A stretch of DNA of 64,000 nt, taken from positions 62,001-126,000 of the forward strand of contig CATKZI010000007.1 in NCBI GenBank assembly GCA_949841365.1. The letters run 5' to 3'. The position numbers were made by a program, and so were the translations under genes. Below are positions 3,387-46,255 of this stretch, one piece after another. This stretch comes from an uncultured Candidatus Melainabacteria bacterium (lineage in GTDB: Bacteria > Cyanobacteriota > Vampirovibrionia > Gastranaerophilales > Gastranaerophilaceae). Positions within the stretch are counted from its first letter, which is position 1; the number at the start of each line of letters is the position of its first letter. The notes beneath the pieces were generated by a model that worked only from the letters and a program-made list of their open reading frames with translations, had not been told where the DNA came from and made no database searches.

Positions 3387-4068
3387 AGAAAGAAATTACA
3401 ACAGAAGATATCCGCATGAATACAATCTGTTTAGAACATTGTTTTATTATGCTTTTCTATATATAGTTGTACATCCTTTTATGAAAATATTCTATAATTA
3501 TAAAATTACTGGACGTGAAAATTTGCCGACTAAAGCAAAGAGCGGAAAATTTATTTATACTGCAAACCACGTGTCGCACTTTGATCCGCCGATGGTGACA
3601 ATGGCTTGTAACAGACCGATTGCTTATATGGCGAAAAAAGAATTGTTCCAAAAAGGTGATAAATGGGAATGGCTTGTAAAACGTCTTGGCGCGTTTGCTG
3701 TTGACAGAACAAAACCAGAAATTGCAACTTTTAAAACAGTTAAAGATATTCTTGCAACAAGCTGGTCTTTGGGAGTATTTCCGCAAGGCGGTATAAGACC
3801 TTACGGCTCGGACTTGTGCGAATTGAAAAAAGGTTTTATTGTTATTGCTAAAAATGCAAAGGCTGATATTGTACCTGTTGCGATTGCAGGATTTGACGGA
3901 TATCCGAAGTTAAAACCGTTTACAAGACGCAACGTTCATCTCCATGTCGGAAAACCGATTTCTTATAAATTGAGTGAAGAAGAAATTATGCGCGAATGGT
4001 GCAGACAAATTACAGAATACGCAGATTATAAAAATTCTTTGGAAGTAAAAGAGGAGATTACTATATGA
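3376..4068 (+). CDS. PlsC-like acyltransferase, second copy
   Basis: A 230-residue paralogue of the preceding gene. It keeps the catalytic NHVSHFD at 64-70, but its second motif reads FPQGGIR at 135-141, with Gly replacing the usual Thr, which hints at a different acceptor. A hydrophobic stretch near 22-42 suggests membrane association. AGGAG 6 bases before the ATG supports the start. Its stop is fused to the start of the following prepilin gene as ATGA at 4065-4068, so acyltransferase and prepilin translation look coupled. Tandem PlsC paralogues suggest successive acylation steps, but this is inference. Confidence 0.82.
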   Translation: MQSKERNYNRRYPHEYNLFRTLFYYAFLYIVVHPFMKIFYNYKITGRENLPTKAKSGKFIYTANHVSHFDPPMVTMACNRPIAYMAKKELFQKGDKWEWLVKRLGAFAVDRTKPEIATFKTVKDILATSWSLGVFPQGGIRPYGSDLCELKKGFIVIAKNAKADIVPVAIAGFDGYPKLKPFTRRNVHLHVGKPISYKLSEEEIMREWCRQITEYADYKNSLEVKEEITI

Positions 4069-4834
4069 AAAATTTACGAGTTTTCGGGGGGGGGGCACTT
4101 CTGTAGCCTTCACTCTGAGTGAAGTTTTAATTACGTTAGGGATTATTGGTGTTGTTGCTGCAATGACTATGCCGTCTTTAGTAACTAATATTCAAAACAA
4201 AGGTTATGTCGAGAAGCTGAAAAAGAATTATTCTGTTATACAGCAAGTTACTAATCAAATAATTGAAGTAGAAGGACCTCCTACTGCTTGGAATTGGACA
4301 TCGGACTCTTCTAATGACAATTCTGGCAATGATTATATACTAAATTTGTATAAAAAGCACTTGAAAGTAGCAAGAGCTTGTTCTAGTAACATATATAACT
4401 GTCCTGAAATTCCTGAACTTTGGAATAGGGCTTATAATAAACAGCTAATTACGTATAAAGCATTGAACGGTGAAACTAATCCTATTGGCGTTTCTGACTG
4501 TATTTTTTGTCGTTCGTTTCCTATGCAGTTAGAAGATGGTACTTTTGTCGGAATTACTTTTTTTTCTACCCCTGGTCAAGTACTTTGGGGAAAACCAAAA
4601 ATGTATTTTACGATAGATGTAAATGGAACTAAAGGACCAAATAAAGTTGGACGAGATGTGTTTTTTCTTTATATGAATCATAATGATTCGTCAGGGAGGA
4701 TTTTACCTTATGTGAATGGTGCTATCAATGGTTCAGGTGGCGGAGATTTTAGTCAGGCAAATACTTGTGATAAAGATAAGAGCGGTGTAAGCTGTGCATA
4801 TCGTGTTATTACAGAAGGTAAAATGAACTATTAA
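4065..4834 (+). CDS. Prepilin-like protein, out of frame at a 10-G tract (phase-variable candidate)
   Basis: The ATG at 4065 overlaps the upstream stop and follows GAGGAG. It reads MKNLRVFGGG and then hits TAG at 4104, because the G run at 4086-4095 has 10 bases. The reading frame that encodes FTLSEVLITLGIIGVVAAM, a classical type IV prepilin N-terminus, is open from before 4106 to 4834 and has no start codon of its own before 4163. A tract of 11 or 8 G would join the two. The joined leader would be about 15 residues, with Ala before the mature Phe. The C-terminal part has DVNGTKGPNKVGRDVFF and four Cys pairs typical of pseudopilin-like secreted proteins. Function is unknown; slippage or an assembly error must be told apart. 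Confidence 0.75.
4086..4095 (+). repeat. Homopolymeric G10 tract inside prepilin start region
   Basis: Ten consecutive G in AT-rich DNA, 21 bases after the start codon of the prepilin gene. The length puts the start codon and the prepilin frame out of phase; 11 or 8 G would restore it. Such tracts vary by slipped-strand mispairing in many surface-structure genes. Confidence 0.95.
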
Positions 4835-43479: not shown

Positions 43480-44282
43480 TTACCATGGATAGTCATCAGG
43501 AACTTTCCAGCCGTTTAAAATTATATCTCTGGCACAGGTTACACCGTTCCAAGCATCATTATTGCCATTGTGATTGCATTTTTTATAGGTGTCTGAACCT
43601 ATAAGCCCCAAACCTGTAATAACAAAGGTCGGAGCTTTTTGGGCAGGTGACAAATCAAAAGCAAAAACATCTCTCCCTGCAATGTTAGGACCTTTAGAAC
43701 CATTTATATCAACAAATAAATAGCGGTAATTTGAAGTATGATTCCAAATAACATAACAAAAACCTTTTTGCGGTACACAATAAGCATGATCATAATTGGG
43801 GATGATATATGTTCTTTCTTTTGATTTCGTAAGAATGCTTCTATTTTTTCCTTTGTATTTTTCCACTCCGAGTATATAAGGATTAATGTATAGTTCAAGG
43901 ATTTTGTCAGTTGAATCTGAGTAACCAGCATAAGAAAGTACAATGTCTGATGGTATTAGAATTGGATCTCCAAAATCTAATTTAGCACGTTCTATTGCTT
44001 CTGAAAAAATCTGATATGCAGCTTTTAATTGTGTTACTGTTATCTGTTTTTGATAATTTGCAATTAATTGCGGTATTGTTATTGCTGATATAACACCAAT
44101 AACGCCTAATGTAATTAGAACCTCAGCAAGTGTAAAACCATATTTAAACTTTCTAAAAAGCCGAATGTGTCGGGTTAAGTGATGCTTCAACCAAGAGCCT
44201 GTAAATCTTAACCGAGCCTGCTCGTCATAACTACGCACGTAGTGTCGGGGGGGGGGCAGTTTTGAGCTTGTAATTTAATCAT
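43480..44282 (-). CDS. Prepilin-like protein, out of frame at a 10-C tract (phase-variable candidate)
   Basis: GAAAGGAG and an ATG at 44282 give the expected start MIKLQAQNC, but the C run (plus-strand G at 44247-44256) has 10 bases and sends translation to a stop after 24 codons. The main frame starts around 44238 (a GTG without ribosome site) and contains a long basic segment, then GFTLAEVLITLGVIGVISA, the prepilin cleavage site and helix. With 11 or 8 C the leader would be about 49 residues. The C-terminal part has DINGSKGPNIAGRDVFAF, the motif shared with the prepilin at 4065. A 75-base segment in the leader looks inserted. Function unknown. Confidence 0.75.
44167..44256. repeat. Segment in the prepilin leader bounded by 8-bp direct repeats, with a C10 tract
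   Basis: GTGTCGGG occurs at 44167-44174 and 44242-44249. Between them lie a CTTAACC/GGTTAAG inverted pair and the palindrome CTACGCACGTAG (44231-44242, copy 3). The second repeat runs into ten G (44247-44256). The layout suggests a small insertion. Confidence 0.55.
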
Positions 44283-44305
44283 ATTTTTAACTCCTTTCAT
44301 TTTAT

Positions 44306-46255
44306 TCAAGACGTAAGTCCCAATACCTCATATATATCCATTTTCTTTGCTTTACCGCGAATTGTTACATCTGCAATTCTGATTACGTTTACAATATCGC
44401 TGACGTATGTATATGTAGATGAGCTTATGAGCATGTTTGTTTTGTAAACCTTGTTGTAACTCTCAATTCTGCTTGCAAGGTTTACCATATCGCCGATTAC
44501 TGTGTATTCAAGACGTTTTTCTGAACCGATGTTGCCGACAAAAGCTTCACCTGTATTAATACCAACACCGATTTCTATTTTGGGCTTACCTTCCAAAAGC
44601 CATTTCTCTTGAAGTTCATCAACTTTTTTAAGCATTGCACAGGCACATTTTACTGCGTTTTGAGGGTGATTGATATCTTGAATCGGTTCACCAAAAATTG
44701 CCATAACCGCGTCGCCGATAAATTTATTGATTACGCCGTTATATTTGGTGATAATCGGTTCTATTTCAGAGAAATATTCGTTCAAGATGACGGAAACTTC
44801 TTCTGCCGTCATTTTTTCCGACATGCTAGTAAACCCTCTGATATCTGCAAATAATACGGTTACATTTGCTTTTTTCCCGCCTAATTTTATATCGTCGATG
44901 TTTTGAACAACATTTTGCATAATGTCTTGGGATAAATATTTTCCCATTGCATTTTTGATTTTTTCTTTATTTTTACCTTCAAGAATAAATCTGTAAGAAT
45001 ATCCGAAAATCATTGTACTCAGCTGAACTGCAAGAGGAGTTATGACTAAAGGGATAATGTTATAATTAAATGCAGCTAAACAAAGTAGGAAATAAATAAT
45101 TGCTACTACAAGCAGTATTATTAATGATGGTAAAAAAGCCATGTTAAGTATAATAATTAAAGTTAATATTGATAAAATTATTATTATTGTAATGTTCTGC
45201 AAGACAGAGAGTTTTATAATAAAATCATTTCTTAAAAAGTTGTCAAGAATAGTTGCTTGAATATCCGCCCCGGGATGGTTTAAAGATATTGGAGTCTCAA
45301 GTGCATCTTCAACTCCCATAGCGTTAGCTCCGACAATTACTATTTTGTCTTTAAATTCTGTCGGGTCAATGATTGGCTTTTTGCCTTGTTTTATTAATCT
45401 ATTTGAATTAATAATATCAATTGCAGAATAATTTTCATGTGAGTATTCTGAATTTGGTAATAATTTATAAAATTTTATATTGTGTTTTATATCACCGTTC
45501 GTTTTTAGTACAGGTATTTTTAAGTTTGTTTTATCAACTAAAATATAGTCGTTTGTGAGTGTTATTTTATCAGTATTATTTGATAATAAGTATGTTCTTA
45601 ATGCAAGTGACGGATAGTAGTTATTGTTATAACTTATCAAATCGTTAGATGTTCTTAAAACTCCATCTATAGGGTGTAAATCCAAATTTACCGAACCAAC
45701 ATATTTTTGAGCATTGAAATAACTTTCGGGGAACATTGTTAAACTTCTGTAATCACTTATTCTGTCTGCGTTATTTGTTCTTTTGTCAGAAATATCTATA
45801 GAGAATTTTTGTTGAAAAGCTTTATCGTAATTTGAACCCTTTTCAATATTTTCATATGGTGTTAGCCTCGCCATATAACCGCCTACGAAATTAGGAGATT
45901 TTTTTACAGTGTTAAAAAAGAAATTGTCTGATTCCGGTCCACGTTCTTTATCAAGACTGTTCAAAACAGAATCAAATACAACAACTTTTGCTTGTGTGTA
46001 ATCCGTGAAATATTCAAAAATTTCGCCGTATAGTGCTCTAGCCCATGGCCAGCGGTAACTTTCCAATGACTTGTTATCTATAATTACAAGCGATACATCT
46101 TTTGAAGTTTCTACAGTTGCTGATGATGAATTTATAATTGCATCATTTATAGGATTTTCCCAAAAATTGATTGATACAAAAGATATTACAAGTACCAACA
46201 ATATGTGTAATAATATTGATTTAAAAAAGAAAGCTTTTCCCTTAAATATTTTCAT
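44306..46255 (-). CDS. CHASE2-domain adenylate/guanylate cyclase
   Basis: A 649-residue membrane cyclase. After an N-terminal helix (about 12-30) comes a large extracytoplasmic CHASE2 sensor (to about 320; SLVIIDNKSLESYRWPWARALYGEI and KDKIVIVGANAMGVEDALETP are typical), then three helices and a class III catalytic domain from about 460: VLFADIRGFTSMSEK (metal Asp), FIGDAVMAIFG (second metal Asp) and GINTGEAFVGNIGS...YTVIGDMVNLASRIE. These residues are intact, so it should make cAMP. AAAGGGATATG precedes the ATG. The signal sensed is unknown. Confidence 0.9.
   Translation of the reverse strand: MKIFKGKAFFFKSILLHILLVLVISFVSINFWENPINDAIINSSSATVETSKDVSLVIIDNKSLESYRWPWARALYGEIFEYFTDYTQAKVVVFDSVLNSLDKERGPESDNFFFNTVKKSPNFVGGYMARLTPYENIEKGSNYDKAFQQKFSIDISDKRTNNADRISDYRSLTMFPESYFNAQKYVGSVNLDLHPIDGVLRTSNDLISYNNNYYPSLALRTYLLSNNTDKITLTNDYILVDKTNLKIPVLKTNGDIKHNIKFYKLLPNSEYSHENYSAIDIINSNRLIKQGKKPIIDPTEFKDKIVIVGANAMGVEDALETPISLNHPGADIQATILDNFLRNDFIIKLSVLQNITIIIILSILTLIIILNMAFLPSLIILLVVAIIYFLLCLAAFNYNIIPLVITPLAVQLSTMIFGYSYRFILEGKNKEKIKNAMGKYLSQDIMQNVVQNIDDIKLGGKKANVTVLFADIRGFTSMSEKMTAEEVSVILNEYFSEIEPIITKYNGVINKFIGDAVMAIFGEPIQDINHPQNAVKCACAMLKKVDELQEKWLLEGKPKIEIGVGINTGEAFVGNIGSEKRLEYTVIGDMVNLASRIESYNKVYKTNMLISSSTYTYVSDIVNVIRIADVTIRGKAKKMDIYEVLGLTS

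Follow-up and report, generated by a model that had tools for sequence, protein, structure and literature searches.

Among the closest described systems is the G-tract switch of sortase pili at bbr_0113 and bbr_1889 in Bifidobacterium breve (PMC9187656). As in the locus described here, the host is a gut commensal, an intragenic run of G10 or G11 splits the pilin gene near its start and the assembled state is out of frame, with the likeness to the tract-bearing prepilin genes (tract-prepilins) extending to the fusion of the two frames by replication slippage (PMC9187656). However, B. breve has sortase pili in one or two clusters per genome whereas dozens of tract-prepilins occur here, its ON length is one base shorter (-1) whereas here it is one base longer (+1), and neither a replichore rule nor dozens of copies has been reported for it. 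The Campylobacter phasome likewise consists of runs of 8-11 G in surface-gene reading frames of an AT-rich genome, with 5-81 poly-G contingency genes per strain (PMC6321876, PMC4965091). In Campylobacter G9 accounts for 53% and G10 for 26% with mixed ON lengths (8G-11G), whereas the present tracts are mostly of 10 bases with ON at 8 or 11. Poly-C on coding strands amounts to 5% in Campylobacter (PMC6321876), and in table 1 for NCTC11168 neighbours on both strands (cj1295-cj1342c, "c" denoting complement) carry the G run on their coding strand without exception (PMC4965091); the base follows the gene in Campylobacter but the replichore here.

The homopolymeric contingency loci of Neisseria resemble the present case in bringing together poly-G/C switches and type IV pilin variation. 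Neisserial pilin subunits vary by gene conversion into pilE, whereas here each of many prepilins would have a tract switch of its own. Genes with programmed -1 frameshifting or transcriptional slippage share the slippery run followed by a zero-frame stop, but here run length varies among copies and the strand follows replication. In the open-licence literature no paper linking Melainabacteria or Gastranaerophilales to phase-variable pilins was found. Poly-G/C switches are known already, and B. breve, itself a gut commensal, has them in its pili (PMC9187656). New here are the scale and the family concerned (type IV-type prepilins), as well as a design that is uniformly one base short and an orientation locked to the replichore.

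The locus lies in a stretch of 64,000 nucleotides (C7:62001-126000, the window) from a genome of 1.69 Mb in 19 contigs with about 35% GC. On the minus strand a Shine-Dalgarno-like (SD) GAAAGGAG (44291-44298) precedes an ATG (44282-44280) whose leader codons, in the register MIKLQAQNC (44257-44282), run into a C10 tract (44247-44256; G10 on the plus strand). With 10 C the frame from this ATG reads MIKLQAQNCPPPDTTCVVMTSRLG* and is closed after 24 codons by TAA (44210-44208), whereas 11 or 8 C lead into the frame of an intact mature prepilin of 218 aa beginning FTLAEVLITLG (43480-44136, minus strand), across a 110-nt spacer (44137-44246, minus strand) that is open in the prepilin frame and holds a CTACGTGCGTAG-like palindromic repeat. 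The SD, the ATG, the C10 tract, the end after 24 codons and the ON lengths stand in the sequence as the earlier note had read them. A CHASE2 plus adenylate/guanylate cyclase gene (44306-46255) adjoins directly upstream and RecG lies downstream. The prepilin matches PF07963 at 22.6 bits (cut-off 21.2) and TIGR02532 at 24.2 bits (cut-off 16.3), and has the GFxxxE-type (N_methyl) N-terminal cleavage/methylation motif of a type IV prepilin or pseudopilin; in the wider set described below the residue preceding FTLAE is G or A in 197 of 197 tract-prepilins. Scores against the named pilins GspG, ComGC and PilA all fell below the curated cut-offs, with matches limited to the N-terminal helix.

Just two G/C runs of at least 7 bases occur in the window, the other being a G10 tract (4086-4095) on the plus strand between the ATG and leader (4065-4085) and the intact mature part (FTLSEVLITLG, 4109-4834) of a second prepilin gene. 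Run scanning and translation agree with the earlier claim that both poly-G/C loci of the window are prepilin genes with 10 bases that need the same change, each being one base short of ON (11 or 8). The two genes face opposite ways, the plus-strand prepilin reading GGG and the minus-strand prepilin CCC, and despite this the C's lie on the same (minus) strand at both. This common C-strand follows a replichore-wide rule (see below) and not the coding strand.

In the source genome there are 50 C-runs of at least 8 bases, mostly of exactly 10 and nearly all with a G just before, a count beyond chance since a hand estimate from base composition predicts a few runs of 8 C. An intact prepilin ORF follows directly in 39 of the 50, and PF07963 has 44 matches genome-wide. 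Among relatives within the genus the number of C-runs reaches 173 (tract-rich species have about 48-173 per genome) and three lack any, and other families of the Gastranaerophilales have few or none. A search for the C-type arrangement across 84,980 species genomes gave 66 stretches, the majority titled Gastranaerophilales, Melainabacteria or "Fusobacterium sp. CAG:439" and the others uncultured bacterium; the "Fusobacterium sp. CAG:439" contigs match G004, a genome of the source's genus, so that this name is evidently wrong. In the relative G026 the short-spacer G-type genes by themselves number 65. Another relative, G021 (L175-L203), has 128 prepilin motifs against 3 long C-runs, and its sampled genes begin plainly with MKK..KGFTLAEV, so the tract system is evidently absent or lost there. 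At one further locus (L214, G004:C64) the leader has a G12 run separated by N's from a second tract, G10, possibly reflecting an insertion at, or an assembly gap between, two tracts.

The earlier note had suggested that the prepilin genes with such tracts be tabulated with their phase, and the outcome was as it predicted. The table holds 197 distinct tract-prepilins, each with an SD ahead of its ATG (178 distinct leaders and 169 distinct spacers), mostly from one Gastranaerophilales genus. The tract is exactly 10 bases long in 161 of 197, with lengths of 8-13 across copies, and the prepilin is out of frame (OFF) in 182 and in frame (ON) in 15. ON lies at 8/11 in 178 genes, at 10/13 in 17 and at 9/12 in 2; against a chance of 1/3 the first class gives p about 1e-62, although the rows are kin by descent, leader exchange and paralogy and not independent, such that this and the other p-values are too small and descriptive. 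In the main class all three registers of the tract to the ATG are used (89/51/38), and therefore leader and spacer lengths compensate, the total being the conserved quantity. One leader group, MKK..KAVQIV, has C9 with ON at 10, and tracts of the ON-length-10 minority are mostly of 9; the usual state is therefore "one base short of ON" and not "ten". The nine main-class copies with 11 bases are in frame.

The frame used at 10 bases is itself marked: in 88% of main-class genes it runs into a stop within 20 nt, whereas the other wrong frame does so in 39% (p=1.5e-19), and the stop is often a TAA or TAG within TAAGCTCC/TAGCTCC. Among 151 short-spacer genes there is no ATG between tract and FTLAE and any start codon (GTG or TTG) in 2, so translation has to cross the tract to reach the pilin, and a start codon 3′ of the tract was rejected. 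A fixed 14-bp insertion (TG-C10-GA), removal of which also restores the frame, is unneeded given lengths of 8-13 with ON at 8/11.

The mature ORF is intact in 39 of 39 tract-prepilins of the source genome, and 12 orthologue pairs between G004 and G026, with 10 bases in both members of all 12, have dN/dS of 0-0.30. By these sequence measures the OFF prepilins are not decaying and are kept under purifying selection. The earlier argument from two unlinked genes in one OFF state, that they share a design rather than random decay, is strongly supported by the single ON class (178/197) and the 182/197 OFF genes, by intact mature ORFs in all of the own-genome genes checked and by purifying selection in orthologues that are OFF in two species. 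In the pairs L207/L209 and L204/L205 the upstream region and mature gene are common to both members while the leaders from SD to tract are unrelated, their register matching, and on this comparison the leaders have evidently been swapped as cassettes.

Repeats that are open in the prepilin frame are frequent in the spacers between tract and pilin (44137-44246; L041, L047, L052, L066-L068), in families of CTACGTGCGTAG-like palindromes and of GTAGGCACGAACGTTAGG...AACGGAAACCAC. In G-type loci a CTCC-containing spacer motif complementary to the gene's own SD was also seen (e.g. L140-L169, L078, L152). Looked at as possible stimulatory RNA elements of a programmed frameshift, G-type spacers pair better with their own SD than with swapped SDs (z=-5) and C-type spacers do not, a comparison confounded by species, and an SD-sequestering hairpin is possible in G-type loci with the same confounding. 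As a general explanation the SD:spacer hairpin was set aside, being confined to G-type loci and confounded by species.

The orientation of the tracts is tied to replication. In the source genome the C's lie on one strand per contig with one switch (C1), 38 tracts being oriented like their neighbours to 1, and the prepilins face both ways with 22 reading G and 15 reading C. There are two switches among 48 tracts in G025 and two among 73 in G007, and one or two per genome is the number expected of replichores. In G025 the orientation flip coincides with the sign change of GC skew; the C's are on the skew-negative strand, and regardless of gene direction the G's are on the leading strand, where GC skew is positive. 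GC skew was used because dnaA, which is not at the orientation switch in G025, was dropped as an origin marker. No description of such a replichore orientation rule was found in the open-licence literature. With a skew of about 0.1, mutational loss of C from the leading strand is too weak to yield a rule without exceptions, and we therefore infer that fork direction affects tract slippage or persistence; it would set slippage behaviour, so that one orientation alone is kept. Selection for switching, with an unstable orientation, and selection for constancy, with a stable one, would account for the rule equally well. Tentatively, the fork and not the gene may dictate the tract, in that a usable switch, or a tolerable tract, would arise solely with G on the leading strand. 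The whole pilin repertoire may then rest on a fork-coupled, default-OFF switch that stands one base short, the leaders being G-type on one strand and C-type on the other.

Tracts also occur in genes other than prepilins, namely a GT2 plus TupA-like ATP-grasp fusion, another GT2-like gene and an acyltransferase, together with genes for a DUF2142 membrane protein, a hexapeptide-repeat protein and a PMP-repeat surface protein. In the source genome itself G/C10 tracts lie in classic contingency genes (glycosyltransferase plus ATP-grasp, acyltransferase and PMP-repeat surface protein). By ORF span about 10 of 14 non-prepilin tracts are in frame as assembled compared with 15 of 197 prepilins (Fisher p=6e-8), and one non-prepilin gene (L083/L146) is OFF with C11 in G004 and ON with C10 in G026. 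These in-frame tracts and the C11/C10 pair favour contingency loci acting at the DNA level and speak against a systematic undercount of bases.

Taken on sequence patterns, the tract is probably a slipped-strand phase-variation switch of a default-OFF prepilin repertoire. As a contingency switch it would act from within the leader of a type IV-type prepilin, where it stands after the start codon and ahead of the GFTLAEV cleavage/helix region; the gene belongs to a repertoire of about 40 tract-prepilins in the source genome and more in relatives. At one base short of ON, ribosomes would read the leader and tract, meet the early stop and make no pilin, while a replication slip of +1 (or -2) would bring the mature pilin into frame and turn the gene ON, such that a small random subset of the repertoire may be expressed per cell. 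We infer that tract length changes within populations and that 11 is the expressed length. Slippage goes up with tract length from G8 to G11 (PMC4965091), and because of this an ON length one base above the common one could make the ON state short-lived. As in simple-repeat phase-variable genes, C10 stands between the ATG and the prepilin with 11 or 8 restoring the frame, and the genes are intact though OFF (39/39 ORFs; dN/dS 0-0.30). Length differences exist, at 8-13 among homologues and as C11/C10 in the one orthologous non-prepilin pair. Against slipped-strand switching, MutS is present in 32 of 33 genomes, and loss of mismatch repair was accordingly rejected as a source of instability. In addition, neutral slippage should not leave so uniform a state, and the tract lengths agree at 10/10 in 12 of 12 orthologue pairs. 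Moreover, ON at 9/12 (ON+1 designs) is found in just 2 of 197, which is unexpected under slippage because deletion should be about as easy as insertion.

Programmed -1 recoding would equally lead to such a scarcity of ON=9 designs, and this is the main point in favour of programmed -1 frameshifting or transcriptional slippage, the strongest rival, to which we give a modest but real chance. Here RNA polymerase would insert a base, or the ribosome shift by -1, at the G/C run, making 10 bases the working allele from which a fixed share of full-length pilin is produced, with the early stop limiting the unshifted product and selection holding the tract length. The usual state being exactly one short whether ON is 11 or 10 suits such recoding, as do the placement of the stop just past the tract in the n=10 frame (the slippery site and following zero-frame stop of programmed-frameshift genes, within 20 nt in 88%) and the constant length in orthologues whose mature pilins are constrained. 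However, that replication direction sets G or C in the mRNA is not predicted by an RNA-level signal alone, though it could follow from selection for a stable DNA orientation; in addition, lengths of 8, 9, 11, 12 and 13 occur too, and similar non-prepilin tracts are read in frame without a shift.

It is improbable that runs were undercounted by one base in sequencing or assembly, the genes being truly in frame, even though exactly one base is missing every time, with ON=11 as with ON=10, as non-prepilin tracts of equal assembled length are mostly in frame (10/14; Fisher p=6e-8 against prepilins), prepilins with 11 bases are in frame as written and the pattern recurs over many separate assemblies. 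Slightly less probable again is that the tract serves mainly as a DNA-level recombination landmark for leader-cassette exchange among prepilins, or for insertion of small repeats, with the frame shift secondary; the different leaders up to the tract in L204/L205 and L207/L209 and the repeat-like inserts beside tracts would fit, and conversion could homogenise a uniform tract, but the single phase over three registers and the stop specific to the n=10 frame are left unexplained. Decayed pseudogenes with a neutral homopolymer, for which the out-of-frame state of most tract-prepilins might speak, are contradicted by the 39/39 intact own-genome ORFs, the dN/dS of 0-0.30 and the 178/197 genes in one phase and can be dismissed with near certainty.

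If the genes switch in this way, slipped-strand contingency loci would extend to a large family of type IV-type prepilins in gut bacteria that are uncultured and related to cyanobacteria. The many tracts with known fork direction form a natural data set on replication asymmetry and homopolymer mutability in bacteria. Caution is called for in annotation, as most pilins of these MAGs will be split or dropped.
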